52,931 bases of DNA from a virus: the IMG/VR virus record IMGVR_UViG_3300033571_016046, positions 1-52,931 of that record; one strand, written 5' to 3'. The notes beneath the pieces are model-generated. The model was given only the letters and a program-made list of their open reading frames with translations. It had not been told where the DNA came from and did no database searches. A program made the translations under genes and the position numbers. Shown here piece after piece: positions 14,517-44,144 of this stretch (position 1 is the first letter of the stretch; each line of letters begins with the position of its first letter).

Positions 14517-14554
14517 GTATTTAAACCTTCAGAGTTTAGTACGTTCCTCGATAT

Positions 14555-14561
14555 TATTTAG
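14555..14561 (-). promoter_or_regulatory. Late promoter (CTAAATA)
   Basis: The minus strand reads CTAAATA 39 bp before the ATG at 14516, just at the 3' end of gene 8. This is the cyanophage form of the late -10 box. Confidence 0.65.
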
Positions 14562-14562
14562 T

Positions 14563-16170: not shown

Positions 16171-16208
16171 TATTTGTAGTCCCTAAATTTGTTTGTTAGT
16201 TCTTTGTC

Positions 16209-16215
16209 TATTTAT
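16209..16215 (-). promoter_or_regulatory. Late promoter (ATAAATA)
   Basis: ATAAATA on the minus strand lies 39 bp before gene 8, overlapping the stop of the 3487-aa gene. The spacing to the ATG equals that of the box before the gp10-like gene. Confidence 0.6.
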
Positions 16216-25200: not shown

Positions 25201-26678
25201 TCAGGATCTAAAGAAATAATTTGTACGGATGGATTGCCCTTTCTATTGATATCTGTTCTTGGATACGCTTTTGAAATAAAAGCCCTAGGCTCTTCAAATC
25301 CTTCTCCAATTAATTCATCGTCTACTCTGAAATATCCTGACGTATTATATAAAGTTAATTCATTTGAACCAGCGTCCCAGAATTCAACTCTTCCAGAACC
25401 AGTATTTGATTCATTATATACAATTTGGTCTTGATTAAAAGTTCTTTCACTTACTCTACATGTAATAGGACCTACGTAACTGATTCCTCTATTAAAAATG
25501 TTAATTTGAGTAATAGCTCCAGAAGAGTCAATATCAGTAACTTTTACTGTGGCTGTTTGAGGAATAATATTAGTTGTATCATTTTTAATTCCAAATCCAG
25601 ATCCAATTACTTCAATTTTTGGCGGATTTATTAAATTTCCAAATGAATCTTTTCTATTATCATAATCTTGTCCACCATTAATAATAGAATACCCAACAAT
25701 CCTTACAATTTTTATTTGAGAGCTGGAAGGAATTGTAAATTTTGCTGGATTGTTTATTGTAATAGAATTTTCAGTTGTATTTTTTGAAAGTACTATAGTT
25801 TCTTCTTGTAGTGAAGTATTGATTACTTGATCATTTACTTCAATATTATCAACAGAATTTAAATAAATTTTAATTGCTCCGACAGAAACATTTTGAGTAT
25901 TTGTTTTTAAAATATCTGGAAGCTGAAATCCAACCCCTCCACTGTAATTGGTTAGAACTATTTTTGCTCCACGACCTCTATTTCTTACACGAAGTTTAAT
26001 CTTCTTATCATTGAATAAAATTCGGAATAAAATTTTATGTGAGTTTAAACTTCCTTTTGAAGTATAAAAACTTTTTACTTGAGTTAAGAAACTGCTTAGA
26101 TTTAAATCCGATACTAATTTTTTTGGAAGATTTGGTGAAATCTCCGCAGTTACTCTTCTCAGAAATTCTGATGTAAAAGTAGATGCAATATTTTCTACTT
26201 TATCTCCAACACTATGCTGATGTATTTTTGTTTTAGTATCTAAATTTAATTCACTATCTTGTAAAATTACATTTGTAGAAGGAACTGTTTCCAATACGAA
26301 TGCACTGGTTCCCCTTACACAACCATTGAACGTGGTTAATGTTTTTGATCGGTAAAATATTATTTCTCCATTGATTTTAATGTACCCATTATTTGCGGGA
26401 AATCCTTTAGTGCTTGCTGCAGTAATAATAGTATCAGTTAACGATACTGCACTTTGTAATTCGGTATATTCGGTTAGTTCAGTCGCAGTAAAATTTTTAA
26501 TGTTATAGTAATCTAAAAGATTAGAAATAACATCTAGAGGCTGATATTTAGATTCTAGAGACTCGTAATACGAAGTCAAGAATGATATAAATTTTCTATT
26601 ATTTTGTGAAACAAAAGATGGAAATTGACTTCCAATTAAAGTTGAAAGGTCTACTAGGTTTTCTTCTAAGTTTCTCAT
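16215..26678 (-). CDS. 7: Giant gp7-position baseplate wedge protein with YHYH domain
   Basis: At 3487 aa it is more than three times T4 gp7 (1032 aa). The N-terminus FPSFVSQNNRKFISFLTSYY with ESLESKYQPL is the start pattern of cyanophage gp7-type wedge proteins. Residues about 1340-1436 contain a YHYH-type domain: GWAYDGNPIYGKYAYS, then LDEYNGRYCITPEFPNGTYA and FPYFVG. Many segments carry GxGYxxxPxVxI beta modules. Residues about 2170-3090 hold about ten repeats of 80-100 aa with the core VNGxxxxxxxDYTxxGxxIT. It sits between genes 6 and 8 as in T4 and overlaps gp6 by ATGA. Functional equivalence to gp7 is inferred from position and N-terminus. Confidence 0.85.
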   Translation of the reverse strand: MRNLEENLVDLSTLIGSQFPSFVSQNNRKFISFLTSYYESLESKYQPLDVISNLLDYYNIKNFTATELTEYTELQSAVSLTDTIITAASTKGFPANNGYIKINGEIIFYRSKTLTTFNGCVRGTSAFVLETVPSTNVILQDSELNLDTKTKIHQHSVGDKVENIASTFTSEFLRRVTAEISPNLPKKLVSDLNLSSFLTQVKSFYTSKGSLNSHKILFRILFNDKKIKLRVRNRGRGAKIVLTNYSGGVGFQLPDILKTNTQNVSVGAIKIYLNSVDNIEVNDQVINTSLQEETIVLSKNTTENSITINNPAKFTIPSSSQIKIVRIVGYSIINGGQDYDNRKDSFGNLINPPKIEVIGSGFGIKNDTTNIIPQTATVKVTDIDSSGAITQINIFNRGISYVGPITCRVSERTFNQDQIVYNESNTGSGRVEFWDAGSNELTLYNTSGYFRVDDELIGEGFEEPRAFISKAYPRTDINRKGNPSVQIISLDPELEFPKNNTIKPSSSTYYGKKIIHGKIVKNNLYKTVNNTVVIPRLLSIIQQQDLESGIKGVNLEVTEFSNISTDIFEFSIEANADYKNIVAVPSTKVVIERTGTYSLIFGGIKFETITVDDATGFPLEQGYIFIDGRVFFYQSRSANQFFNCVYVSDYTNSFVIPVNTEVYAYGKNTKTIPFNANEPIKEGDYRYVGNYYYIALNSGTTSIASPSHTSGVRNIDGILWEYKGKNLIPYFLDIYTDGDFTQEPVQILPLGLISDVTVESTGSLYSSTSYEFNSTLENKITLPSITSWNLNLDFTITSSTLPSYENTTGVNSVYVYDGFSYVTSSGIPPYLQSIVGRKNCYNQKLLRRIPISVQKGKGVITESKRNVGITIDGIEIQSPKGNKINYGYLNKIFIGNPGNYKVPISSSGGYTQFNYLKYPVILVEGSNTVLTNTSTRTLLYISSSLSKVDITKLSTSVLTGYTSKPRIEIINNNPANVKTFNESNLDTFFSLVNITNHGFTTGEKITFTSSIEEIGQLRNNFIYYVGDITNNSFRLYFNKDDAVEGGNTFVSFRNNFTILNLTGAIKTDTRNPVDFEQIDLDLSFNETTNIIDNIIIKNPGKGYLNSPTIRIVGGGKNAQTLPLATADADIFTFRGELISGANFDKDNKQEIDVYGLITTRFRTTPRLTISAGSNASFTVFTANGSITSVPIDNAGLYYFTEPSVQIDGVGTGAILRARNDVSTGRITSIDIINPGTGYTISPVVRIIPSGSGGSASAELRSWTFNLSNRLTSDDYGGYLYNVTDDDPKPTNTPSDTLLIPHLNKNNLPTALFDAQYLILKSTTNLNNFYNVSSASHSQIIGWAYDGNPIYGKYAYSSEFDTTSNIVKMTTSWKLRTTRVGGHTTSQYPLGVFVEDYEYVKDYGTLDEYNGRYCITPEFPNGTYAYFVTDEFPYFVGLEYYSTLDQFNICSDRRNDKVPSKFTRINQQLNSYYPKEFKTTSRSIVNVNKITPGGVDKIVVEAGGSNYKIGDKLIVNNRETKGSSAAGYVSRIKGKNILDYALLSLQDEGENSVNYVEVTTQSSHGLALGDTVYFDFAKDQTVYQNITLQGNTVFLNRAKNVKINTAFTSNAIFYYDIEGQLVYMDSNAIKFESDGIKIKTDLIPEILYLLVNTNLYEVRAIDYAIKGPQEVIKIISYNKFRVLKPTDFSEEGIDEIFYTTDSINTIGEIYTASISNSGSNYISLPEISGVSSNTGSGALLQFDSNTIGQLKKFNYSIVGEKFTTNKTIQYDLDIPYVAKILGNFEIYEVEIVYGGVDYISTDKIKVNGQINPNFEFNVIANRGTILSVEVIRGGFNLTSIPTLTVDSLTGTGAVLTAKIRRKRIFANDILKLGNNTNESTASIKNFDPYGSTLEFKVLSGEVQEFDTVYTSDGFPYGKIAHIRKASASARSNSYSSIAPEFLNNYGFLNDSTQKILDSNYYQDWSYTLSSQQNITDWKPEVENNTHAAGFKVFGKKAIQSRKSRFERTEDIVKSSVVFSANFWSSATTPVNLGLKLSKCTEQYIAITRIDGFNVGDYIYGASSGAKGKISSIEENYMEVQLIAGIEFEIGEYVSTVTIDFINGIDEETKSSLLFYSGILQQPFVAYSVSDTNIIPKFIVNDEDELTLYTIQGKFDVLDVYAANTGSTIPLTAIGLPFTPANKQHLLISVNGIVQNTSDITLNGNIITITESLSRGSRCFILHTNTLNQLILTRVNSTTYTINYTPSTSQQLVLFVRGVGQSHLLTDYTVSGNQITLSESIEGEIFGWFINEPVTAQRILAQDLNDRKILDSRNCTIARVTEFIESSKIDYDYGRDSIYEVNKQLIDGTLVSDSDNQTVFGFDTKFKLTTPEYSSSYGEVINPIVFNGVNTTYAMTFSDGKPYTPKNGKNSVIVNVDNKVLDSTQYNISGSNITFSTVYSSSNYCTVTDYISSHIVNDGNLSSAKLDDLQVSFNGTRKTFNLSYKGVPQYVRNTTDVFTIKNNLFLIPDTTSHTVAQNKITLTQAPTSSDNIKFAYFNRQLGLTPNTNLIIDPIQTFDGNLDTFPITIDGVLFTPVSVYNLYVIRSGVYQRPNIDFTTSTSNITFSQAPVTGEEIIIFYSYNNLNINQYLTDFISNGSSSTVNLGMIPPNEDDLFVLRNGVFQNPLIDFTLSSSNLTFTTPLISGEPIFIMYTTASIKIGVTSAVNNTIVLNTMDYNTHINGVLSQIQSMILYVNGVPKIYNKDYTISGTTITLLGPAIDSTTTVFVIKYPNLTFVDDIEYFPDGNRTRFKLLYNGQNLTQSEILSDADILISKNGIILDPGTQYNINVARTFVDFTIAPLANDNLVAIKMNNSVHVPLTLVNGNTYSTTANITSYNLKNVVIFSNNTWKFYDAGDFTYNFTNSRFTLSSSHTTGVLFGIIFDGDFKYLDQLNTPFNGTNNLFNMFIGEENFIPDTYTSLTPVASNIVINKNGKILDPGVEYTLNGTIGSQVQFSVAPISSDKIEIRSIGHFVKLDSITSNIAGNTTFNLRLNGTPYYPNGTIERPRKHENQLIVYKDGNIQSPLYDYYVDNDKLIFINPFTASKLVILDYVGTYKDVEITDTNYTISVGDKIQLGGEFESRKVTEIVSPTILKTETYTGRKASGFSAIAAVNSSSRKLTGITIISGGSGYSYPVILRTKGIGISAKAVANVDQIKGNAITTPVTIEYNGRNLFGTPSLIPTTYGYVYNKNILESSSVSISTILRTSLNNSSEIIKLRNCLNFPQNPPVIEVVTLLGYPGGSGAVFRAFVSKNRIRKVEVVSGGSGYNEKYTVLNVTGGGGFGCLLVPTINTTTGEILSVSVKNEGESYDTFKAIIYDDTNTIQSETIEYTYSSHISNTIVVTNYTGNGTTTVTASVASTSGFTIGDIITISGASGTQQEKLNGSWLIASVNTSNNTFTFVVNSSVTSGIYSEDLGVSTRTVDTLFGCTRSSSPISHDLNSKIYSDNYL

Positions 26679-28810
26679 GAGCAGATATTTGTAGTCTCTG
26701 GAGTGAATGTATCAAGTGTTGGGTTAATATTTGGATCTGTTCCTGGATCTCCTTCTCCACCAGTTCCACCATCGGATGGTGGAGATGTAAATGTACTTCC
26801 ATCTGGATTCGTAGTAGTTGTACTCCCATCTGGATTTACTGTAGTAACACTTCCATCTGGATTTACAACAGTAGTTCCAGGAACATCATCGAATGGAGAA
26901 TTGCCAGATGAGTCTCCATTTGAATCATTTGATGGAGTTGGCAATACAGGTTCTGGATTTAATGTATCATTATTAGCATCATTTACATCAATAATTTCAT
27001 ACTGATATTGTTCAAGAACTGGGAAGGTATCAAATCCAGTAGTAAGATCTGGGAAAACAGGAATTACATAGATATTTATTGGAGTGTCTTGGCATGAAGT
27101 TAGAGTAAAATTAATTTTTCCACTATCATAATCAATTTCTCCAACCTTAGAAATTATTCTTCCAGATACAGTAGATAAGTAAATATTTTTATCCACATCA
27201 CAACCAGAAAAATCATCGCTTAATGAACATAAAAATACTGGCTCAGCGATTCCTTTAACACAAAATAAATCACTAATTAGAGTATACTTTGATGAAAGTT
27301 TACTCTTAATTTTTGTATAAAAATCTACTTCATATTTAAATTCTATATTATTGTATAAATTAATTACTCTTCTGTATAAAGTTCTAATTAAAATATATTT
27401 AATAGATGAATCAATTGCTTCTAAATCACAAAGTAGTTTGGAAGAAGAATAAACTCCACCAAAATTTTTAAATTCATCACTGAAATTAAAGTTTAATATT
27501 GCACTATCAATCAGACTCTTTATTTGAGCTGAATTTTTTCTAGTTTTAGTTTGATCATATACAATTACAGGTTCAACTTCAATATAGAAAGGAATTGCAT
27601 CAATAATTACAGGAGTGATTGATCCTACAATATAATTTTTAATCTCATTTACTATTCTAATTTTTTCTCCCTGACTTATAAGATCTCCTACCTTTGGTTT
27701 AATGCAAATAATTACTTTTCCAAATTGAGGTGGGGAAAGTTTCTCTCCACCTGTAATATTAATCAATTCTGAATTTGCGTAGATAGTTTGAATAATACTT
27801 TCATAGTCAGATGGAGTTACTGCTCGTTGTTGTGCAGAATACCATCGAGGCGCTCTGTATTTAATTGATTTGATGTCTTCAAATTCAGAACCTCCATCGG
27901 TTTTACCTAATATTGCAGGTACAATATTTGAAGATGGAATAATTTCATCTGGTACTACATTTCTAGTTCTAGAACCTACAACAGTACCAACAAAATTAGT
28001 AGGAAGAATTGTAAAATTATTACAAACAGAACCATTAGTTACAACATATCTAATAATTACAATTTCACCATTTTCTAATTTTCTTCCAATTACATTATCG
28101 CCAAATACAATTTCGTATTTTTGATCTTGAATCTCTTCTATGAAAAATACTTTATCTGATGAAGAAACTCCTACAATTGAGGTTTTTCTTGTGTAGAAAT
28201 CTTCTACTGATTCTTGTTGATTCAGAGTAACTCCAGTTTCATCGGCAATAATGGAAACTGTAATAGAAGATACATCAACAAAGTTGTTGGGAACAAAAAA
28301 TCTTTGATTTTCGTTATTTTCGTCTACAACATATGAAATTGTAAATTCAAGTCCTTCCTGAAAAGTAATATTTTCAAAGTTTACTGTATTATTTCTATTA
28401 GTATTAATTAAAATATCATCACGTAAAATATAAGTATATGATTGATTATTTTGAACTATTGAGAATACTGGACCTGCTAATATTTTTATTGAATCATACA
28501 ATGAAACTCCAGTAACGGAAATATTACAGCTAAGTTTAGAAGACGTATATGAATTCGGAGTATATCCTAATTTTTTAGCATGTGATACTACGTTATCACG
28601 GATGACTGCAGTATCGAGATTTAACTCGTTTGCAATCATGTTTGCATTATACGATGTGTACATCGTATTGTAAGCTAGTACATCAACAAGCATTGAAAGG
28701 TTTGAACCTTCAAAATCATAATCTTGAAAGTCTGTTTTAGTCTTTATGTAATTTTTAATAGATGCTTTTATCTGCTCAAATTCAAGAGCAGCAACTGATG
28801 GTAGTTCCAT
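26675..28810 (-). CDS. 6: Baseplate wedge subunit gp6 (baseplate J-like)
   Basis: The 711-aa protein (T4 gp6 is 660 aa) forms the inner ring that holds the wedges together. The N-terminal signature is clear: FEQIKASIKNYIKTKTDFQD, SNLSMLVDVLAYNTMYTSYN, ANELNLDTAVIRDNVVSHAK. The middle has the J-like core (KYRAPRWYSAQQRAVTPSDY, then VIICIKPKVGD). The C-terminal 70 residues are unusual: repeats of NPDGSTTT type followed by a Pro/Gly-rich run (about residues 640-690). The stop overlaps the start of the giant downstream gene by ATGA. Confidence 0.96.
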   Translation of the reverse strand: MELPSVAALEFEQIKASIKNYIKTKTDFQDYDFEGSNLSMLVDVLAYNTMYTSYNANMIANELNLDTAVIRDNVVSHAKKLGYTPNSYTSSKLSCNISVTGVSLYDSIKILAGPVFSIVQNNQSYTYILRDDILINTNRNNTVNFENITFQEGLEFTISYVVDENNENQRFFVPNNFVDVSSITVSIIADETGVTLNQQESVEDFYTRKTSIVGVSSSDKVFFIEEIQDQKYEIVFGDNVIGRKLENGEIVIIRYVVTNGSVCNNFTILPTNFVGTVVGSRTRNVVPDEIIPSSNIVPAILGKTDGGSEFEDIKSIKYRAPRWYSAQQRAVTPSDYESIIQTIYANSELINITGGEKLSPPQFGKVIICIKPKVGDLISQGEKIRIVNEIKNYIVGSITPVIIDAIPFYIEVEPVIVYDQTKTRKNSAQIKSLIDSAILNFNFSDEFKNFGGVYSSSKLLCDLEAIDSSIKYILIRTLYRRVINLYNNIEFKYEVDFYTKIKSKLSSKYTLISDLFCVKGIAEPVFLCSLSDDFSGCDVDKNIYLSTVSGRIISKVGEIDYDSGKINFTLTSCQDTPINIYVIPVFPDLTTGFDTFPVLEQYQYEIIDVNDANNDTLNPEPVLPTPSNDSNGDSSGNSPFDDVPGTTVVNPDGSVTTVNPDGSTTTTNPDGSTFTSPPSDGGTGGEGDPGTDPNINPTLDTFTPETTNICS

Positions 28811-28813
28811 GTA

Positions 28814-29230
28814 CTAGCTTTCTCTTACGAGTAAAAATTCTACGTTTTGTAATGATTGAGGAAGACCTACAATATAATACTCAATATAAACATTAAATTC
28901 ATTTGAATCTTCTTCTGAGTTTATAGTAATATTACTTAATCTAACACGGGATTCAAAATTTTTTATTATATCTTCAATTTCTTGAATTAAAGTATTAATA
29001 GAAAATGAAGTTGTCAACTCAAAAAGGTATGAACTGGTATTAGTTCCAATTAAAGGACTAAACAATCTTTCTCCAAGTTTTGTTAAAACTAAATTTTTTA
29101 CTGATTGTTTAATTGCTTCTTCATTTTTTAATACAACAACATCATTAGTTATTGGATTCTTAAAAAAACTAAAACTAATGTCTTTAAAAGACCTAGAAAT
29201 TTTTCCTAGTTCTTCCGAAACAGTTGACAT
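28814..29230 (-). CDS. 25: Baseplate wedge subunit gp25 (gpW/gp25 family)
   Basis: A 138-aa protein (T4 gp25 is 132 aa) of the lysozyme-fold-like wedge family shared with T6SS TssE. Visible hallmarks are FKNPITNDVVVLKNEEAIKQ, SVKNLVLTKLGERLFSPLIG and, near the end, IEYYIVGLPQSLQNVEFLLV. It initiates sheath assembly around gp6 and gp53. It lies 3 bp from gene 6, as part of one operon. The SD-like AGGA lies 4 bases before the ATG at 29230. Confidence 0.95.
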   Translation of the reverse strand: MSTVSEELGKISRSFKDISFSFFKNPITNDVVVLKNEEAIKQSVKNLVLTKLGERLFSPLIGTNTSSYLFELTTSFSINTLIQEIEDIIKNFESRVRLSNITINSEEDSNEFNVYIEYYIVGLPQSLQNVEFLLVRES

Positions 29231-30070: not shown

Positions 30071-33000
30071 CTAGATACTACTTGAATCAGTTCTTAACTT
30101 ATATGGCCAGAACTGAACTATATAGTTTCTTTTTTGATAACTATGGAACACTGTATTGACTGGTGGTGCATTATCAAATGGTTTTAGGGTACTTCCAAAA
30201 ACATAAGCAGTACCAGTGCTATCTATACCATCTTTAGTAGATTTAAAAGTAGTTCCTACAGCGTATCCTTCTGGAGCACCAAGTTCTAACCAATTAGTAT
30301 TGCCTATAGTTTGAATTGTATATAAAAATCCACTTTCAATATCTCCAGCTGGAACTATAACTTCAAATGTTGAGTTTGTTCCAAATTGAGCACGAATACA
30401 ATTTTCAAATGAATTTGCAGTTTTATTTCCATAGTAAATAATCTCTTCGCCAAGATAATAATAATGTTTTGATGAATTTTTTAAATCAGATTCAGATTGT
30501 TTTGTAACAAATTTTGGAAGTAATAAATATCCACTGTTCATGAAGTTTGCAGTACTACCTTTAATCTTAATTGAAGTACTGGATGAAGTTATGTCTTCGG
30601 AAAGTTCTGCGTATACTGGATCATCCTGATATGGATTACCTTTATTTGCAAGAGCTTCTGAAACAGCATTACTTATTTCATTTACTCTGAAATTTGCAAT
30701 TTTAGTAAATTTAGTTTGATAACTAAGTTCAGATTTCCAAATTATGTTTGGATATGGTCTAGCACCAGTGCAAGTTTTATGTTTACTAAATTGCTTGTTA
30801 TCATCTTCATTTGCTCCTAAAGTTCCTTCTGGTCCAGGTTCAACCCAAACTCTAGTAGAAGTTGAAGTAGATCCAGCAATTGGTGGCGGTGGTGGCGGTG
30901 GTTGTGGAGCAGCATTAGTTAATTCTACATAATCAACTGCATTCGTAATAGTTCCTACTGTCTTAGTAACAGTATTCAATGTCATATCAGGATTATTACA
31001 ACTAAATGTACCTGTAAATACAGGTATAGATCTAATAGTTAAAAATGGATTATTTTCAACTGCATTTGGATTTAAACTATTATCACTATCAAATATAACA
31101 TCATTGACTAAAAATTCTATATTTCCAAATTTGGGTGGCATTCTGCGAATAGTTTCAATAGTCAAATTAATAGGAGCTTCATTTTCTCCCTCCAACATAG
31201 GAGGAAGATTAGGAATTTGCTGAATTTTTGAAACGGATTGCTCAATAGTACTAACTGCAGATGTTAATCTATTCAGCATTGAGTTTTCATTAGAAACTAC
31301 TAATTTATACATTTCTTCTGGTAATATCATTGAAGAAGAAGATATTACTTTAGAAAGATTAGTATTAATATACTGTTGAAGTTCTTCTGTAGTAAATGCA
31401 GCGTTTGATTTAATATCTAAACAAGGATCTGATGTATTATTCACAAGTGAGCTAAAAGAATCTTGAAGTTGATTCAGTTCTTCATATGGATAATATATTT
31501 TTTCAACAGAAGGATAAATTGGATCATTACAAGTTGAATCTAATACTCTTGATACTTTTTTAGAATTTAATGATCCCTTAATTGTATCAATAACATATTG
31601 CTCCAATTCTAAAAATTTATTATCATCTGGATATTTTTTAAGAATATTTTCTAATTCTGTTTTTGATACTGGCATATTAAAATTATTCCAGTATATGTTA
31701 TTAATTCTGTATGCAATATCTGTTTTAGGTTCTGCTACTAGTTCAACATCATTTAAGTATAGTGTTTCATCTTCAAGAATAACATCTCCAATTAGGTATT
31801 TTGCATTAGAGTCTTCAATATAAATCTTTTCACAATCATTATCTCTGGTATAAAAAATAGGACTATATTCTAGATAACGCTTATTTCTTGCTGCATAAAC
31901 TCCTACAATAGCAGAACGAGTTTGAATTCCTTTTCCTGCTACAACTTTAATCTTGCATCCGTTTGTGGTGGTGTAGCTACCATCTCTAGTAAAGTTTGAG
32001 CTTCCCCCAGAAATTTCTGCATAACAAACTGTTGATGCATTTACTTTGTTTACAACATTATTTACAAAAGTAACTTTACGTATTTTGCGACTTCTAATGG
32101 AATTACTTAGAAATATTTTTCTTCCTTTAATTTGAGTTACTGTTGTACCACTAGAAATTCCTTTGCCTTTTACTTTATCTCCAACTAAAATACCAGTAAC
32201 ATTTACTGGACCAGTCCAAGCTGTACCATTCCATTGATAGTATAATTGATTTAATGTATCTTCATCGTCATCAACAATGTAATAGTCATCAATACTACCA
32301 GCATAGGATGCAGGTAAACTTGAAACGCTACTTACTTTTCCTTTAGGATCTACTAAGTCATTTACAAACACATAAGAAGGAGTTTTATTCCTCTTAGAAT
32401 ATTTTGATACTCTTCTTCTGAGAGCTTTATCGGTTACGTAGTTAACAACTTTACTGATAGTCCATCCGTTTACAGTATCTCCTTCAGCAATAACTTTAAG
32501 TGTTCCATCACTATTTGCATCTGGTTCATATGTAAAAAACATTTTATCATCAAAACTTCCACCATGGTAATAAATTAATCCTTCAGGAGGATTTTCTACC
32601 GAACTAGCAACTCCTTGTATTGAAACGGTTCCTGAAACGGTTCCTGGAGCAGCTGCATATGTATCTGTAATTACAGTTGTACTTGCTCCACCTCCACCTC
32701 CTGCACCAGACGAAGTAGTTGTGGTAGTAGTCTTAATAATACCATTGACTGCTCTGCTTACAGAGATGCTCGTGGTGGGCCAATAAAAAACATGATAAAA
32801 ATACTGTTCATCATAAACAGTATTTGCTTTACACTGTCTTTTAAAAATTGGTTTGTTGTAGTAGATGGGATCTCCATCTTCAAATGCTCCTTCACCATCA
32901 TATCCAGGAATAGTATATTCGTTCTCAGGGTCTTCAAGTGGTGCTAGTTCTTTATCGTTAAGATCATTTTTGTCCATGATCTTAACTTCATATTTTTGCT

Positions 33001-33262
33001 GATATACATATTCCCAATTGTAGTCTACATCACCATCGGTAGTCTCTCCTCGTGGTGAATACAATCTAGTTCTGTATAACTTTTCTAATTTACTGCCATT
33101 TCCAATAAGTCTAAGATTATCATTCTGACCCCCTACTTCATGCCATACTTTGTAGTCAAATGGTGCTTTCGGAGAGGATACATACTGAGCTTGTCCTGTT
33201 GGAATATACCAATGACTTATCGTTTTTTGAATTATTTCTTTTTTTGGCCTGCAATTACCCAT
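30071..33262 (-). CDS. Large virion/baseplate protein upstream of the PAAR gene
   Basis: A 1063-aa protein at the place of the T4 hub genes (53/5). The N-terminal 150 residues are globular (HWYIPTGQAQYVSSPKAPFD). A Thr/Gly linker (about 165-185, GAGGGGGAS) and later a proline run (PQPPPPPPPIAG at about residue 785) look like flexible hinges. The C-terminal region holds the module LYTIQTIGNTNWLELGAPEG, continuing to GTTFKST, which recurs in cyanophage structural proteins. I cannot identify a lysozyme domain or OB fold with confidence, so equivalence to gp5 or gp53 is not claimed. It is probably a baseplate hub or wedge component. Confidence 0.85.
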   Translation of the reverse strand: MGNCRPKKEIIQKTISHWYIPTGQAQYVSSPKAPFDYKVWHEVGGQNDNLRLIGNGSKLEKLYRTRLYSPRGETTDGDVDYNWEYVYQQKYEVKIMDKNDLNDKELAPLEDPENEYTIPGYDGEGAFEDGDPIYYNKPIFKRQCKANTVYDEQYFYHVFYWPTTSISVSRAVNGIIKTTTTTTSSGAGGGGGASTTVITDTYAAAPGTVSGTVSIQGVASSVENPPEGLIYYHGGSFDDKMFFTYEPDANSDGTLKVIAEGDTVNGWTISKVVNYVTDKALRRRVSKYSKRNKTPSYVFVNDLVDPKGKVSSVSSLPASYAGSIDDYYIVDDDEDTLNQLYYQWNGTAWTGPVNVTGILVGDKVKGKGISSGTTVTQIKGRKIFLSNSIRSRKIRKVTFVNNVVNKVNASTVCYAEISGGSSNFTRDGSYTTTNGCKIKVVAGKGIQTRSAIVGVYAARNKRYLEYSPIFYTRDNDCEKIYIEDSNAKYLIGDVILEDETLYLNDVELVAEPKTDIAYRINNIYWNNFNMPVSKTELENILKKYPDDNKFLELEQYVIDTIKGSLNSKKVSRVLDSTCNDPIYPSVEKIYYPYEELNQLQDSFSSLVNNTSDPCLDIKSNAAFTTEELQQYINTNLSKVISSSSMILPEEMYKLVVSNENSMLNRLTSAVSTIEQSVSKIQQIPNLPPMLEGENEAPINLTIETIRRMPPKFGNIEFLVNDVIFDSDNSLNPNAVENNPFLTIRSIPVFTGTFSCNNPDMTLNTVTKTVGTITNAVDYVELTNAAPQPPPPPPPIAGSTSTSTRVWVEPGPEGTLGANEDDNKQFSKHKTCTGARPYPNIIWKSELSYQTKFTKIANFRVNEISNAVSEALANKGNPYQDDPVYAELSEDITSSSTSIKIKGSTANFMNSGYLLLPKFVTKQSESDLKNSSKHYYYLGEEIIYYGNKTANSFENCIRAQFGTNSTFEVIVPAGDIESGFLYTIQTIGNTNWLELGAPEGYAVGTTFKSTKDGIDSTGTAYVFGSTLKPFDNAPPVNTVFHSYQKRNYIVQFWPYKLRTDSSSI

Positions 33263-33273
33263 ACTTTTGTAAA

Positions 33274-33453
33274 CTAATCTCCTACTTTATGTATACGAAT
33301 ACCTGGACTATCATGATGTTCAAAGAATTCCCATTCTAATGTGTCTCCTTCGACCCATTGCATCTCTTCTAGGAGTTCTTCAGGGAATGTAACGAAGTAA
33401 TCACCTGATTTTTCATCAAATTGTACTTCAGTGGTGCAAGAAAATGGTGACAT
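33274..33453 (-). CDS. 59-aa AbrB/SpoVT-like protein
   Basis: ATG at 33453 to TAG 33274-33276, ending 11 bp before the 1063-aa gene. The core GDYFVTFPEELLEEMQWVEG followed by DTLEWEF matches the pattern of the SpoVT-AbrB swapped-hairpin domain (strand, P-x-x-hhxxhxhxxGD, strand). Such domains act as small DNA-binding transition regulators or MazE-type antitoxins. It has no obvious toxin partner, and its place at the head of the late structural block suggests a regulatory role. Function is inferred. Confidence 0.75.
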   Translation of the reverse strand: MSPFSCTTEVQFDEKSGDYFVTFPEELLEEMQWVEGDTLEWEFFEHHDSPGIRIHKVGD

Positions 33454-33886
33454 AATTGTATAAATGTTTACATTATATATGAAAAAAAAATTTTTTGATT
33501 TTTTTCAGTGTTTTTTGAATTTTTCGGTGAAATTTTGTCCGATTATTTTCAAAAGTTCTCTGATGGTCATGAAAATATATGAAAATTCCTCGGATGTTGT
33601 TGTTTTTGTGTCAATTTTGGAGAATTTTTGAGTCACTTGGGGCAAACTTGAAGAATTTTGGAGGACCTTGGAGGACCTTGGAGGTTTTCGGAAAAAATTT
33701 TTGGGTTGATTAACTATATATCAGTCGATTTCAAAGTTTTATAGCTTACTGGGACCCAACACTTTTAATACGGGCCACGGGGGGCGGGACATAAACGGCC
33801 CTTATAACTGCCCACTGCTCCCATTAGGACTGCTGATGTATCAGAACTGCTGATGGATGGGGGGACTCAGCCCCCCGTTGAGCTTA
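33454..33886 (-). other. 433-bp intergenic region with A/T tracts and short repeats
   Basis: No coding frame was found. On the minus strand, long A tracts (33481-33530) lie upstream of TATAAT at 33472-33477 without a good -35, possibly a promoter for the 59-aa gene with an A-tract UP element. GGAGGACCTT is repeated in tandem near 33660-33685. The 10-mer ACTGCTGATG occurs twice at about 33830-33856. Composition shifts from AT-rich to GC-rich at about 33.75 kb. Confidence 0.6.
33859..33876 (-). terminator. G6/C6 hairpin downstream of the 58-aa gene
   Basis: Six G and six C flank a 6-base loop, 10 bp after the stop at 33887. No T tract follows, so termination strength is uncertain. Confidence 0.45.
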
Positions 33887-34063
33887 TCAGTCGGCGGTGC
33901 TGCCCAGCAGCTTGGCCAGAAGGGCTTCGGCTTCGGCCCGTTCCATTAGCAGCTGCCAGGGCTGATGGCGTCCGTTGTTGTGGTCTGCAGCAATCAGACC
34001 AGACATCACCATCTGGCGGGCGATGGTGGCTTCTGCTGCGGTCAGGGTGACGGTGGCGGGCAT
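33887..34063 (-). CDS. 58-aa GC-rich hypothetical protein
   Basis: ATG at 34063 to TGA 33887-33889. The product starts MPATVTLTAAEATIARQMVM and ends EAEALLAKLLGSTAD, an Ala/Leu-rich, mostly helical small protein. G or C dominates third codon positions, unlike the virion genes but like the neighbouring genes in this island. A CTGTAGAATT box lies about 25 bp upstream. No family recognised. Confidence 0.6.
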   Translation of the reverse strand: MPATVTLTAAEATIARQMVMSGLIAADHNNGRHQPWQLLMERAEAEALLAKLLGSTAD

Positions 34064-34088
34064 CGGTCTCGGTTCGGTTGACTCTGTA

Positions 34089-34129
34089 ATTCTACAGGCT
34101 AGGAAGGGCCAGCTGTGGCTGGCTGGCCC
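34089..34129 (-). promoter_or_regulatory. Hairpin plus TAGAAT promoter-like unit
   Basis: A hairpin (GGGCCAGC/GCTGGCCC, 34106-34129) is followed on the minus strand by CTGTAGAATT (-10-like TAGAAT at 34089-34094). The same order occurs before the genes at 35243 and 35559. The -35 is weak. Confidence 0.45.
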
Positions 34130-34145
34130 GAATGTTCACAATCCG

Positions 34146-34460
34146 TCACACAGGGGTGTTGCGGTCCTGGCTCCAGTTGCGGAGCCTGCGGTTGCTGGCC
34201 TTGCTGAACACACGGTCCCCGATGGTGCGGCCATCGGCCAAGGTGACGGAACTGCGGCCTGCTGCATCGGCGGCAACCTGGAGAGCCTTGCGGCCCAGCT
34301 GGCGCTCAGCCTTGAGAGCAGTCTCAGAGGTGGCCAGGTCAAACAGCCACTGAGCACGGTGGCGGCCAATCACCTGGGCGTGGCGAATGGTCACACGGGC
34401 CACGGCCACAGCCACCACGGTGGGGATGCTGGTGCTGGTCAGACGGTCGGAGCGGGTCAT
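34146..34460 (-). CDS. 104-aa GC-rich hypothetical protein
   Basis: The 104-aa product is basic, Ala/Arg-rich and helical, with ATSETALKAERQLGRKALQV in the middle and LADGRTIGDRVFSKASNRRL near the end. Codons are strongly GC-ending, matching the island. Its leader carries a GGGGGC/GCCCCC hairpin (34478-34496) between the promoter and the ATG, which could affect translation. No family recognised; overlapping frames in this GC-rich DNA are less protein-like. Confidence 0.65.
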   Translation of the reverse strand: MTRSDRLTSTSIPTVVAVAVARVTIRHAQVIGRHRAQWLFDLATSETALKAERQLGRKALQVAADAAGRSSVTLADGRTIGDRVFSKASNRRLRNWSQDRNTPV

Positions 34461-34477
34461 GATTCTCGGAAAGTGGT

Positions 34478-34496
34478 GGGGGCTTCTCTCGCCCCC
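34478..34496 (-). other. Leader hairpin in the 5' UTR of the 104-aa gene
   Basis: GGGGGC and GCCCCC flank a 7-base loop between the -10 box at 34505 and the ATG at 34460. It may modulate or attenuate expression. Confidence 0.5.
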
Positions 34497-34504
34497 GTGA
34501 ATGT

Positions 34505-34533
34505 ATTGTAGACCATCGGGTGGGGGGTGTCGA
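34505..34533 (-). promoter_or_regulatory. Sigma-70 type promoter
   Basis: Minus strand TCGACA (34528-34533), 17-bp spacer, TACAAT (34505-34510). The -35 is inside a hairpin (GGGT.GGGGG / CCCCC..ACCC, 34518-34545) that follows the upstream gene. Confidence 0.65.
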
Positions 34534-34574
34534 TCCCCCAGACCCGACTTGTAACAAACTGAAATAATTATACT

Positions 34575-35243
34575 TTAGGCTACGATTTCGTTGACTGTTT
34601 TCTTAGCATTACCATGTGCAGGAAATGCAATGATAAAGTCACGATCAGCCTTTGCACAAAGGCCACAAGTTGCACACGTTACGTTTTCATGAATCGTAGC
34701 GGGGCAGGTGATAACTTTACGACCTGATTCTGTTTTGTAGAATCGTTCGGTTTTGTCAGACTTGACAACAGCAACTGCAGGAATGTTGTGCTCAGTCATG
34801 ATAGCATCAGCCACCTCAACATCCTCAGTGGAAGCATTGATTGTGAAGCCTTTAGAGTTAGCTTCTTTGATTACTTCCAGGTTGTGGCTGTTGAGAACGT
34901 GGTGGGTGTAGGTATACCCTTTGCGGCCTTTGTTTGCATCAGCCAGTGCAGATACCATGGGAGCATTAATGTCACCCAGAACGTGGGGGAGGTCACCAGA
35001 TACATTGTGGCGCCAGAGTTGGCCACGCTGGAGTTTACGAACTGCAGAAGTAAACTCCTGAAAGTTTACACCTCGCTCACCCTCAGTAACTTTCTTCCAG
35101 TGAATGTTTTGGGGGCCAGATTTAGCGTAGCAACCTTTATTGTAGAAAGGGCAGGTTGCAGGGCAGGTCTCACGGCTGCTGGTGCTGGTGGGGATGGGGC
35201 CAGTCTTGGCGTTGCTGGAAACCAGGGTGAGTGCAGTGTTCAT
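34575..35243 (-). CDS. Cys-rich DUF7227-like protein
   Basis: The 222-aa protein starts with SSNAKTGPIPTSTSSRETCP followed by CPFYNKGCYAKSGPQNIHWK. It later has GQLWRHNVSGDLPHVLGDIN, GRKGYTYTHHVL, KGFTINASTEDVEVADAI and a C-terminal block CPATIHENVTCATCGLC ending FPAHGN. This arrangement of Cys clusters with a central GQLWRHN/GDLP core is the pattern of a family on plasmids and phages that I recall as DUF7227. The four-Cys ends suggest metal or Fe-S binding. The function is unknown. Composition is richer in GC than the virion module. Confidence 0.8.
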   Translation of the reverse strand: MNTALTLVSSNAKTGPIPTSTSSRETCPATCPFYNKGCYAKSGPQNIHWKKVTEGERGVNFQEFTSAVRKLQRGQLWRHNVSGDLPHVLGDINAPMVSALADANKGRKGYTYTHHVLNSHNLEVIKEANSKGFTINASTEDVEVADAIMTEHNIPAVAVVKSDKTERFYKTESGRKVITCPATIHENVTCATCGLCAKADRDFIIAFPAHGNAKKTVNEIVA

Positions 35244-35269
35244 CGGTTCGGGGTGGTGAACTTGAGAGA

Positions 35270-35302
35270 ATTCTACAGGATGGTGGGGCCAGAATTGGCC
35301 CC
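35270..35302 (-). promoter_or_regulatory. Hairpin plus TAGAAT promoter-like unit
   Basis: Hairpin GGGGCCA/TGGCCCC (35285-35302) then CCTGTAGAATTC with TAGAAT at 35270-35275. It lies about 27 bp before the ATG at 35243. Confidence 0.5.
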
Positions 35303-35313
35303 TGTTACAAAAC

Positions 35314-35559
35314 TTAATGCTGGGTTACCCAGTGGTCCATGCTCATCACCCAGCCCTCGCTGTGCCACTTGTGGAAGCGGTCAGTCTTAAACTGCTCCCA
35401 CTGGGCTGTGGTGATTAGGTGGCCTTCCACCCACACTAGGGTCTCATCCTGCTCTAGCTGAGCCTGCTTGGCCCCAGCCCTGACCCGAAACATTTCGGCG
35501 GCGATGGTGGCCTGGCTAGCATCGGGTCCGATTCCAGGGAGGTGTTCGGTGGTGAGCAT
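35314..35559 (-). CDS. 81-aa hypothetical protein in the GC-rich island
   Basis: The 81-aa product has an Ala/Gln-rich helical first half (DASQATIAAEMFRVRAGAKQ) and a Trp/His-rich end (WEQFKTDRFHKWHSEGWVMS). Codons are GC-ending. It is flanked by hairpins and carries its own CTGTAGGATT box 24 bp upstream, so it seems to be a single-gene unit. No family recognised. Confidence 0.7.
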   Translation of the reverse strand: MLTTEHLPGIGPDASQATIAAEMFRVRAGAKQAQLEQDETLVWVEGHLITTAQWEQFKTDRFHKWHSEGWVMSMDHWVTQH

Positions 35560-35582
35560 TGGTCGGTTGCGACTGCCTCAGA

Positions 35583-35617
35583 ATCCTACAGCATCGGGTG
35601 AGCCCTGGAGCCCACCC
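35583..35617 (-). promoter_or_regulatory. Hairpin plus TAGGAT promoter-like unit
   Basis: A GGGTG...CACCC inverted repeat (35596-35617) precedes GCTGTAGGATTC with TAGGAT at 35583-35588. It is preceded by TTTTGTTACAAG, which also precedes the units at 34.55 kb and, as TTTTGTAACAG, at 35.31 kb. Confidence 0.4.
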
Positions 35618-35635
35618 TTGTAACAAAATGAAATA

Positions 35636-35827
35636 TTACATCTCCAGCAGCCAATCCTGGTCTTTATGTACATTAACCCAGAAGAAGTTCCTGCCATTTA
35701 GACTACGCAGGAAGACTTTATCTCCTTTGTGTTGTTCTACAATGCAAAGTTCACATGATTCCATTACATTAGCGAACCTGTTTTTGGCTTTCTTTGAGAT
35801 AGGCTTGACTGAAATCATGGTGTCCAT
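35636..35827 (-). CDS. 63-aa hypothetical protein
   Basis: The product (MDTMISVKPISKKAKNRFAN at the start) has a Cys pair (SCELCIVEQ) and a beta-like end (KVFLRSLNGRNFFWVNVHKD). It resembles small proteins scattered in T4-like cyanophage genomes. Its ATG overlaps the stop of a 22-aa upstream frame (TAATG). An in-frame ATG at residue 4 is also possible. Confidence 0.75.
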   Translation of the reverse strand: MDTMISVKPISKKAKNRFANVMESCELCIVEQHKGDKVFLRSLNGRNFFWVNVHKDQDWLLEM

Positions 35828-35895
35828 TAGAGAAACTTTCTTTCAAAACTACGAAACAATGCTAGAGCAAAAAGAAAGAGAATGATTCCAGACAT
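35827..35895 (-). CDS. Possible 22-aa membrane peptide
   Basis: ATG at 35895 opens MSGIILFLFALALFRSFERK with two more residues before TAA at 35827-35829, which overlaps the next ATG. It would be a single hydrophobic helix with a basic end. The coupling supports it, but at this length chance cannot be excluded. Confidence 0.4.
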   Translation of the reverse strand: MSGIILFLFALALFRSFERKFL

Positions 35896-35920
35896 TTACA
35901 ATTTGTAATGTTTGTTTGGT

Positions 35921-35939
35921 GGGGGCTGGTGAAGCCCCC
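35921..35939 (-). terminator. GGGGGCT/AGCCCCC hairpin
   Basis: A 7-bp G/C stem with 5-base loop, 10 bp after the stop at 35949. No T tract on the minus strand, so it may act as a weak terminator or mRNA end. Confidence 0.5.
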
Positions 35940-35948
35940 AGAATCATA

Positions 35949-36212
35949 TCAGACAGTCACCTGCTGCAGTTCGTCAGTCTTTCGACCGTCTGCAATTGTA
36001 GAACCAATGCTAACCTTTTCTAGCATTGCATCATTGGTGAGCAAATCGCTGAGGAATTGTGCATAGTTCTCACTGCAGGTGAAAGCATAGGCTTTGTCTA
36101 CATTGTTGTGCCAGATAACTACAACATCAGTACCATCTACAGTGATAGAGTGAATGGCGCTGGATTGTTCCTTGGTAAACTGACGGTGAACGGGGGAAAT
36201 TGCAATAGTCAT
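35949..36212 (-). CDS. 87-aa hypothetical protein
   Basis: The ATG at 36212 was chosen: the longer frame begins at a TTG that is the -35 box of the promoter. The product (MTIAISPVHRQFTKEQSSAI) continues with ITVDGTDVVVIWHNNVDKAY and AFTCSENYAQFLSDLL. That is a strand-turn-strand pattern with a helix, similar in outline to KTSC-type small domains, although the signature is not complete. It is a single-gene unit between two hairpins. Confidence 0.75.
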   Translation of the reverse strand: MTIAISPVHRQFTKEQSSAIHSITVDGTDVVVIWHNNVDKAYAFTCSENYAQFLSDLLTNDAMLEKVSIGSTIADGRKTDELQQVTV

Positions 36213-37309: not shown

Positions 37310-37338
37310 ACTATAGGGGGTTTCTCTGAGGTTGTCAA
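37310..37338 (-). promoter_or_regulatory. Near-consensus sigma-70 promoter
   Basis: Minus strand TTGACA (37333-37338), 17-bp spacer, TATAGT (37310-37315). It fires away from the origin-like region into the 57-aa gene. Confidence 0.85.
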
Positions 37339-37485
37339 GGGGTCTTTGATTAGTGTTGCTTATGTATGATATGATGTATAGTTAATAATTAATAATAATT
37401 TGTCACCCCTAACAGAGTCATTATACACATATTCGGGATGTGTGTCAAGTATAGTTAATAATTGTTAATAATAGTTTTCCCCAGG

Positions 37486-37507
37486 TTTTCCACAGCCCTG
37501 TGGAAAA
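37486..37507. repeat. Inverted pair of DnaA-type boxes, copy 1
   Basis: TTTTCCACAG at 37486-37495 and CTGTGGAAAA at 37498-37507, separated by CC. Perfect palindrome arms of 10 bp. Confidence 0.85.
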
Positions 37508-37610
37508 CTATCGAAGGGGCTCTGAGTGATTTGAAGTCCTTATATATGGATTCCTTATGGGTGGTCTCGGAATGATTTGGAATCCTTATGGGTTTTTTGG
37601 GACTGGGGGC

Positions 37611-37639
37611 TTGACAAATTGGCCGAGTGATGATATAAT
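37611..37639 (+). promoter_or_regulatory. Consensus sigma-70 promoter on the plus strand
   Basis: TTGACA (37611-37616), 17-bp spacer, TATAAT (37634-37639): no mismatch in either hexamer. No coding frame follows on the plus strand. A transcript would start near 37646 and read through the AT-rich repeats toward the second box pair. Confidence 0.85.
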
Positions 37640-37700
37640 GCTCGCCAAGACTGCTGCACCTCCGTACATTTCAGATACTTTCTCTGACACCCTCGGACAC

Positions 37701-37752
37701 ATACAGTATATACTTAATAATTATCTCTTTATACAGTATATACTTAATAATT
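37701..37752. repeat. Two 22-bp direct repeats with 30-bp period
   Basis: Identical copies at 37701-37722 and 37731-37752, each containing AGTATATACTTAATAATT. The inner GTATATAC is palindromic. They resemble iterons and are too few and AT-rich for a CRISPR. Confidence 0.85.
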
Positions 37753-37820
37753 CTCTCTCTACATACATCTCTCAACTATATTTTTTATTACATTTAATAA
37801 TTGTTAATAATTATACTACT

Positions 37821-37842
37821 TTTTCCACAGCCTTGTGGAAAA
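37821..37842. repeat. Inverted pair of DnaA-type boxes, copy 2
   Basis: TTTTCCACA at 37821-37829 and TGTGGAAAA at 37834-37842. The flanks continue the similarity to copy 1 (AACTAT after the second box), so the element is a direct repeat of an inverted pair. It ends 10 bp from the stop of the 60-aa gene. Confidence 0.85.
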
Positions 37843-37852
37843 CTATGCGGAA

Positions 37853-38035
37853 CTACATATACTTCATCATTGAGTCTGCTATCTGCCAACAATATGCTGC
37901 TATCAACTCATCAGGTTCCATCTCTGCTTGTGATGCTGCTGTCTGGAAATTCTTTTCTATTACATTACTTGCTAACTGTGTAAGTGCTATCTTAGCAAAC
38001 TCTATTCTTAAAGTTTCTTTCTCTTCCTTATTCAT
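37853..38035 (-). CDS. 60-aa helical phage protein
   Basis: The product MNKEEKETLRIEFAKIALTQ ends with AAYCWQIADSMMKYM. The frame 'LRxxFAxxALxxL ... AYxxADxMM' is a very common small phage/prophage protein pattern of unknown function. It overlaps the upstream nuclease-like gene by four bases (ATGA) and ends 10 bp from the second DnaA-type box pair. The start is secure because of the overlap. Confidence 0.85.
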   Translation of the reverse strand: MNKEEKETLRIEFAKIALTQLASNVIEKNFQTAASQAEMEPDELIAAYCWQIADSMMKYM

Positions 38036-38601
38036 AGATATTGTTCTATTGGTGTACTGGATGGATTAAAGAATTGTAGATTCTTAATAATAACCAATGG
38101 ATGATATACTTGATAGATTAACTCAGGCTTTTCTTGAAATTGACATTTTGTGCTTGATGTTAGTTTAGCCTTTGGTCTATCTAAAATTAAATTTGTATTC
38201 TTTACGAAGCCTCCATCATTTCTCCTGGGAACATGCTTTGAATCAGACCTCCAGATGAGTGTTCTATAATGTGTCATTAGTACATGATAGAATACATCAA
38301 TATCCTTTTCGGAGTAATTGCTTGTTTCACTTTGAAACTTAAATGCATATCTCGACTTTCCCTTTTCAACACGATATGAAATCTTTTTCACCTGAGCAGA
38401 AAGCCAACTATTTCTACTCATTTCAATCAACAAATCAACTCCTTCATCAATATGTGGTACTGCAGTATTGAGACTTTTCATCTGGCAATATTTCATTACT
38501 TCGCTTGTACACGATTCTCCCGAATACACTGACTTGTTTGTGAGCAGTTGCTTTTCTTCAGGTAGCAGTGGTGGCATGACTGCTGGAATGATTTGTTTCA
38601 T
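38032..38601 (-). CDS. Putative PD-(D/E)XK nuclease (I-Ssp6803I-like)
   Basis: The 189-aa protein carries the spaced residues of a PD-(D/E)XK core: E34 (CTSEVMKYC), D56 (DEGVDLLIEM) and Q70-V-K72 (AQVKKISYRV). This E...D...QxK spacing is that of the group I intron endonuclease family of cyanobacterial I-Ssp6803I. The second half is basic and may bind DNA (MTHYRTLIWRSDSKHVPRRN). As a free-standing gene it may be a homing endonuclease or a host-DNA nuclease. It has no intron around it. It sits next to the origin-like region and overlaps the next gene by ATGA. Confidence 0.65.
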   Translation of the reverse strand: MKQIIPAVMPPLLPEEKQLLTNKSVYSGESCTSEVMKYCQMKSLNTAVPHIDEGVDLLIEMSRNSWLSAQVKKISYRVEKGKSRYAFKFQSETSNYSEKDIDVFYHVLMTHYRTLIWRSDSKHVPRRNDGGFVKNTNLILDRPKAKLTSSTKCQFQEKPELIYQVYHPLVIIKNLQFFNPSSTPIEQYL

Positions 38602-42848: not shown

Positions 42849-44144
42849 TCAATCAACGTAGTATTCAGGAGGAATGCCCTGCCTGAAAACAAAGTCTACC
42901 ACACTTTGCAGCCGTTGCTGCGTGTTCTTTCCATAATTTTTGTGAACAGGAACCGTGACAAACCCATGAGTCTTGCGATAAGACATGTAATCTCCAGGAG
43001 TCAGACGACCCTCAGCAATATCCTTAGCATCATCACGGTCTACACGAATCACTCGACCAATGGTTTGACACATTTCGATAACATTCAGATTTCGTAGCAG
43101 AACACAATGAGTCAACCCAGGACAGTTGATACCTTCAGACAAAATAGAATAGTGAAACAATACAAATTTCTTGTGCTTGTCTTGACCCCACTTAGTCATG
43201 GTGTCAAAGAATACTTCACGATTCACTTTCTTGTCATTGACATATGCACCTTCTTTCGATGTAATATGAAGAATATCATATCCACGTTGTTTGAACTGGT
43301 GCATCACATCAGTACGAAATAACATTTGGCACAATACTTTAGTGCTAGGTGCAGCAACTAGAACTTTCTGTGACTTATCATCATCAAGTCCATCAAGAAT
43401 ACCAAGTAGAGTCTTAGCATCATGTTTCGCTGCTTCATCTTTCACACGCTCTCCATCTACTTCATAAACTTGAACCATGGGAGGAATGATGCTACCATTC
43501 TCAATCAGCTCAGGTGCAGGTACATTCTCAATCACCTGACCAAACACAATAGAGTTATTCATGCCACGACCTTTGGGATTCTGCGACAGTTTAGGTGTTG
43601 CAGTGAAATAGTATGCAGACTCTGCATGTTGAGACATCATTGCAGTAGAAACAAAGAAGTCTCGCTTGCAGGCATTGTGAGCCTCATCAAAGTAGACTGT
43701 ATCAATGTGTATTCCACTGTCAATAATACGATGAAGAGAATGATAAGTAGTAAAAAGTAGTTGGTGTTCATTGCTTTCTTTAACCATGTTATGAAACATG
43801 GTGATATGGTCAGGATTAGTGGTAGAAAAATGCCTAGTCTCCCCAGAGTGAACGTGAGCAACTACAGCATTCTTGATTTCTTGTGTAAACTCTACACACA
43901 ATTGGTTCGCAAGCAGAATGCGAGGAGCAACAATCAGTGCAGTAAAAGGTTTCTCGGATTCTTCTAACCTACGCATGAGGTCACGAATCATAATCAACGT
44001 TTTGCCACCACCAGTGGGAACATACACCTGACCCATGCGAACCAGTTCCATCTTGGTGAGGCTGCGGGCTTGGTGGGGACGGAGCTTCATGGCAAATGGT
44101 CGAATGGGTCCACCATACCATGGCAGACCCAGACCTGTCAACAT
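42849..44144 (-). CDS. SF2 DNA/RNA helicase
   Basis: The 431-aa enzyme shows superfamily 2 motifs: LRPHQ Q-motif-like at 21-25, Walker A VPTGGGKT at 42-49, DEAH at 153-156 (VYFDEAHNACK), motif III FTATP at about 180-184, and motif VI (QTIGRVIRVDR) near residue 370. It is an ATP-driven helicase or translocase related to the UvsW/type III restriction-like branch. The T4 UvsW N-terminal domain is not evident. The ATG at 44144 lies directly at the stop of the 515-aa gene; an ATG at residue 19 (44090) is also plausible. It may work in origin-independent replication or repair. Confidence 0.9.
   Translation of the reverse strand: MLTGLGLPWYGGPIRPFAMKLRPHQARSLTKMELVRMGQVYVPTGGGKTLIMIRDLMRRLEESEKPFTALIVAPRILLANQLCVEFTQEIKNAVVAHVHSGETRHFSTTNPDHITMFHNMVKESNEHQLLFTTYHSLHRIIDSGIHIDTVYFDEAHNACKRDFFVSTAMMSQHAESAYYFTATPKLSQNPKGRGMNNSIVFGQVIENVPAPELIENGSIIPPMVQVYEVDGERVKDEAAKHDAKTLLGILDGLDDDKSQKVLVAAPSTKVLCQMLFRTDVMHQFKQRGYDILHITSKEGAYVNDKKVNREVFFDTMTKWGQDKHKKFVLFHYSILSEGINCPGLTHCVLLRNLNVIEMCQTIGRVIRVDRDDAKDIAEGRLTPGDYMSYRKTHGFVTVPVHKNYGKNTQQRLQSVVDFVFRQGIPPEYYVD

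Follow-up and report, generated by a model that had tools for sequence, protein, structure and literature searches.

A conserved promoter and AT-rich locus with cyanobacterial-type DnaA boxes is a candidate replication origin of T4-like cyanophages

Results

Layout of the locus

The window, i.e., the whole stretch of DNA analyzed, is a linear IMG/VR viral fragment of 52,931 bases. UvsW, gp25 and gp6 homologues are present, which agrees with its first-pass annotation as a T4-like phage, and the best matches of the helicase are helicases of the Kyanoviridae, the T4-like cyanophages, annotated as helicase or UvsW. The locus lies between the uvsW and gene 25 homologues, in an interval packed with short hypothetical genes and in which no uvsY counterpart was identified. 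Its features and the bordering genes are as follows.

26675-28810, minus strand: gp6-like baseplate wedge gene (PHROG 219, 2e-141)
28814-29230, minus strand: gp25-like baseplate wedge gene, one border of the interval (PHROG 261, 1e-44)
37310-37338, minus strand: promoter P3, TTGACA-17-TATAGT, in the gene direction
37381-37812, plus strand: TTAATAATT repeats at 37382, 37455, 37714, 37744, 37794 and 37804, which recur in relatives
37420-37448, minus strand: promoter P2, perfect TTGACA-17-TATAAT, in the gene direction and divergent from P1
37475-37483, plus strand: variant DnaA box TTTTCCCCA, in tandem with the next box after a 2-nt gap
37486-37494, plus strand: DnaA box TTTTCCACA of palindrome 1, exact match
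37499-37507, minus strand: inverted DnaA box TTTTCCACA of palindrome 1; two relatives, L130 and L131, have homologous boxes here
37520-37543 and 37566-37589, plus strand: direct repeat CTCNGARTGATTTGRARTCCTTAT, with both copies ahead of P1 and conserved in six aligned sequences
37611-37639, plus strand: promoter P1, directed toward uvsW and thus antisense to the phage genes, a perfect TTGACA-17-TATAAT whose second hexamer is preceded by TG
37640-37698, plus strand: P1 leader (GCTCGCCAAGACTGCTGCACC...ACATTTCAGA...CTCGGA), near-identical in the six aligned sequences
37775-37818, plus strand: AT-rich element CTATATTTTTTATTACATTTAATAATTGTTAATAATTATAC, a candidate DNA unwinding element, kept in relatives even without boxes
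37821-37829, plus strand: DnaA box TTTTCCACA of palindrome 2, exact match
37834-37842, minus strand: inverted DnaA box TTTTCCACA of palindrome 2; the boxes of the relatives L134 and L135 also lie beyond the AT-rich element
42849-44144, minus strand: UvsW-like helicase gene, the other border of the interval (PHROG 16 DNA helicase, 2e-64)

As described in the first-pass annotation, four exact TTTTCCACA boxes form two inverted pairs about 335 bp apart; they are the only exact copies in the window, all inside 37486-37842. Both palindromes read TTTTCCACAGCC[C/T]TGTGGAAAACTAT, with a spacing of 335 bp and 96% identity over 26 bp. Since TTTTCCCCA, the second host oriC box type, occupies 37475-37483, palindrome 1 is a three-box array. 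It sits between P1 and P2, the only two perfect TTGACA-17-TATAAT promoters in the window, while palindrome 2 lies beyond the AT-rich element. The AT-rich repeats reported at the locus were also recovered, six of the nine TTAATAATT copies in the window (37382-37812) lying either between the palindromes or to their left. The 24-bp direct repeats at 37520-37589, just upstream of P1, are a possible activator or iteron site.

The locus had been considered devoid of genes, and we found no convincing gene inside it. A plus-frame ORF of 170 aa (37557-38069) has its start codons ahead of the promoter, and relatives do not keep its frame intact. A protein-coding P1 leader was rejected: its frame is partly open, yet broken in relatives and in distant phages. 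No relatives of the neighbouring 189-aa ORF were detected by peptide scan. Elsewhere in the window, positions 33000-36000 have a G+C content of 0.48-0.53, compared to about 0.30-0.40 in the rest, and GC skew turns positive there; this stretch contains a DUF7227 gene (34575-35243) and is possibly a foreign insert.

The boxes are clustered and match those of the host oriC

Shuffled windows contained a mean of 1.14 exact TTTTCCACA copies anywhere and 3 of 100 shuffles reached at least four boxes; the number of boxes by itself is therefore weak evidence. By contrast, neither a TTTTCCACA-N2-6-TGTGGAAAA palindrome nor any two boxes within 60 bp of each other occurred in 400 Markov-simulated windows. 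The clustering of the boxes in the window is not due to chance.

The identification of the motif as a cyanobacterial DnaA box is supported both by DoriC, which lists TTTTCCACA as such, and by host oriC regions. Upstream of dnaN in 23 picocyanobacterial genomes, we observed TTTTCCACA in 11, TTTTCCCCA in 10 and the DnaA-trio TACTACTAC in 15; Synechococcus WH7803 carries TTTTCCACG and TTTTCCCCA at this place. The phage locus holds a cluster of both common host box types, TTTTCCACA and TTTTCCCCA, as oriC does, but differs from picocyanobacterial oriC by the lack of dnaN and of the DnaA-trio, by its compact three-box palindromic arrays and by its promoter-leader unit. No (YTA)3 run was found beside the boxes in 15 of 16 arrays, the only one being CTATTATTA at palindrome 1 of the window. 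The skew switch expected at an origin of this kind by the first-pass annotation was not observed either, as cumulative GC, TA, purine and keto skew had no consistent extreme at the locus in seven complete genomes; such a switch could be masked, because one-strand transcription dominates skew. Overall, with no trio, no skew switch and boxes that are dispensable (see below), full mimicry of oriC is disfavoured.

Distribution in Kyanoviridae and conservation of the core

Scanning viral contigs for the palindrome returned at least 119 stretches, compared to 12 in the whole collection for a reversed-motif control. ORFs resembling those of six complete Kyanoviridae genomes were present at 100 of the 119 palindrome loci, among the matches listed, versus 2 of the 12 control stretches. 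We also observed TTTTCCACA palindromes in higher-G+C contigs without Kyanoviridae-like ORFs (L009, L028, L060, L074, L103 and similar), possibly from another phage group with DnaA boxes. Among the matches listed, the palindrome was upstream of gp25 in all 53 IMG/VR fragments in which this gene is visible and downstream of uvsW in all 13 in which uvsW is visible, and the cluster is also located between uvsW and gene 25 in Syn1, S-RIM2 and Syn9. When 9-mers repeated within 60 bp were counted independently of any motif, TTTTCCACA came first, in 15 of 20 uvsW-gp25 regions, the next unrelated one reaching 4. In the complete Kyanoviridae genomes that show a tight cluster, it is confined to a single locus, which holds, for example, 3 of the 8 boxes of S-PM2, 7 of the 10 of DSL-LC03 and all 5 of a 194-kb record (G001). 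This locus is near 19.2 kb in S-PM2 and near 52.6 kb in Syn9. No box cluster was found in T4 or the podovirus Syn5, nor in P-RSM4 and P-SSM2, both Prochlorococcus phages examined. The public S-PM2 record (AJ630128.1) places tRNA features on top of CDSs and of the box cluster (tRNA-Leu, 19252-19333); no tRNA was detected by ARAGORN in 12000-28000, and the annotated positions look wrong.

Across the family, the order of elements is an antisense TTGACA-17-TATAAT-like promoter, a leader with YAAGA..ACA, 40-190 nt, an AT-rich CTATnTTTTTTAAnnCATTTA and the boxes, which are arranged as TTTTCCACA-n3-TTTTCCACA-n4-TGTGGAAAA or near variants. P1 is kept in all six aligned sequences, its leader motif recurs in distant Kyanoviridae, and the promoter part is antisense in 40 of 40 orientable fragments among the matches listed. 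The -10 hexamer matches TATAAT poorly in part of the family; because of this variation, support for the promoter label is good in the window, in S-SM2, L127 and L134 and in many contigs, and weaker in S-RIM2 and Syn1. A profile combining promoter, leader, AT-rich element and boxes picked out a single clear site per genome in six complete genomes, the held-out DSL-LC03 among them, and also recovered the held-out Bellamy and S-CREM1, while S-H9-2 had no match to it. The P1 leader of L134 (minus strand, within 15650-16300) contains about three repeats of a 39-nt unit, GGCATACAGTATAAGGTTAATAATTTACTTGACACACTC. In five of six genomes, the counterpart of the AT-rich element ranks in the lowest 0.2-7% of 30-bp stretches by stability, that of Syn1 being not unusually unstable, and over 100-bp windows the element is not unusually unstable in most genomes; it is only moderately weak.

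Among close relatives the core is near-identical, and boxes are found at site 1 (L130, L131), at site 2 (L134, L135) or at neither (L127, L136). Phage Bellamy likewise keeps the core with no boxes at the locus. Since L127 and L136 keep the locus without boxes, the boxes are dispensable. The conservation on which the first-pass annotation depended is consequently partial: most of the family has the cluster at this place, but L127, L136, Bellamy and P-RSM4 have no boxes at the locus. From these alignments, the conserved core is the predicted antisense sigma-70 promoter with its leader and the AT-rich element, not the boxes.

Discussion

The locus resembles an origin of T4. T4 oriF has two parts, a promoter and a DNA unwinding element rich in AT, and acts by R-loop (PMC3016281). 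Its annotated position, 115321, is between uvsW and gene 25, and its primer is the (-) strand uvsY transcript. The cyanophage locus occupies the same interval as this origin, also called ori(uvsY), and, as far as can be read from the sequence, its promoter lies directly upstream of the AT-rich element and its transcript would run toward uvsW. The two differ in that T4 oriF depends on a MotA middle promoter and on the uvsY transcript, whereas the cyanophage locus has an early sigma-70-like promoter and, in most members, DnaA boxes; no TTATNCACA box was found near T4 oriF. Because T4 has several origins, one syntenic locus could have another role.

We therefore propose, at about an even chance of being right, that the locus is an early replication origin of the T4 oriF type with added host DnaA boxes. 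Host RNA polymerase would fire at the strong antisense P1, and the transcript would cross the conserved leader and reach the AT-rich element, where it may stay paired as an R-loop. With this RNA as primer, the phage replisome could then carry out leading-strand synthesis toward uvsW. The neighbouring TTTTCCACA boxes, inverted and in tandem, would bind host DnaA, which would help to open the AT-rich element or to hold it open; the boxes would be an accessory part that was lost in some lineages. The origin recruiting host DnaA suggested at first is retained here in modified form, since its place and its promoter and AT-rich anatomy fit T4 oriF, but the dispensable boxes and the lack of skew switch and trio do not speak for it.

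The replication genes of these phages also weigh against the proposal. T4-like phages were assumed to need no host DnaA, which probably holds here too: gp59 helicase-loader homologues were found in 11 of 18 Kyanoviridae tested, and all Kyanoviridae encode the T4 replisome (PMC2984593). Because many of these phages have gp59, helicase loading by host DnaA would not be required. No match to the gp59 N-domain was obtained in S-PM2, S-RIM44, Syn1, S-H9-2, S-CAM3, S-WAM1 and G001, in which it is lost or too divergent.

The strongest rival is transcription control by DnaA, because palindrome 1 sits between two divergent promoters, both perfect, with a third promoter close by. DnaA at palindromes 1 and 2 would then activate or repress early promoters, and the locus would be a promoter hub and not an origin. 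The boxes of close relatives also shift from one side of P1 to the other, as regulatory sites do. However, transcription from the conserved promoter would run opposite to the genes, over a stretch that lacks genes and any conserved ORF, and a promoter would not need the AT-rich element to be as conserved as it is, so we regard operators as a serious but rather unlikely explanation.

The first-pass annotation had also raised a decoy, in which the phage boxes titrate host DnaA and stop host initiation once phage DNA is abundant. E. coli datA, a DnaA titration locus, is likewise a compact DnaA-box cluster outside oriC. Three to seven consensus boxes are arrayed in one place in the cyanophages, the boxes are dispensable, and phage copy number rises during infection. 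Nevertheless, the boxes are few per genome and, unlike datA, the cyanophage locus has an antisense promoter, an AT-rich element and a fixed genomic place, which a pure decoy does not need and leaves unexplained. Titration is conceivable but unlikely.

A small non-coding antisense RNA gene, with boxes bound by a phage or host protein other than DnaA, would account for the leader being the best conserved part. However, no consensus RNA fold of the P1 leader was found, no Rfam family was above threshold and the motif is the host oriC box, which makes this explanation improbable. Finally, it is very improbable that the palindromes are transcription terminators or chance hairpins. Most arrays contain direct box repeats spaced by 11-12 nt, which are unable to form the hairpin and largely refute this reading. 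As RNA, each palindrome can adopt a fold (-10 to -19 kcal/mol), and palindrome 2 follows closely on a short minus-strand ORF, but folding z-scores are only -1.4 to -1.8 and no terminator-like site (GC-rich stem followed by a T run) was found.

Returning to the oriF-type origin, a more specific and tentative version, which we hold with less than even confidence, is a hybrid origin that couples a T4-type start, primed by a transcript in an R-loop, to host DnaA. The first round of replication would then be gated by the cell-cycle initiator of the host, and the DnaA arm would be gained or lost between lineages. The close relatives with and without boxes provide natural test pairs.

No report of DnaA boxes in cyanophages was found in the open-licence literature, nor a mapped replication origin of T4-like cyanophages in the literature searched. 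According to a review (PMC2984593), Syn9 was predicted to have a single theta origin; as its position is not given there, part of the present finding may already be known.

Taken together, our results define a family-wide candidate site of about 200 bp, tied by its position to a well-studied origin of T4. T4-like cyanophages are abundant ocean viruses, and this family of loci spans those of marine and freshwater cyanobacteria. The DnaA boxes carried by most of these cyanophages suggest that host DnaA is used or exploited to start the copying of phage DNA, which would directly link the replication starter of the host to a phage that has its own replisome.
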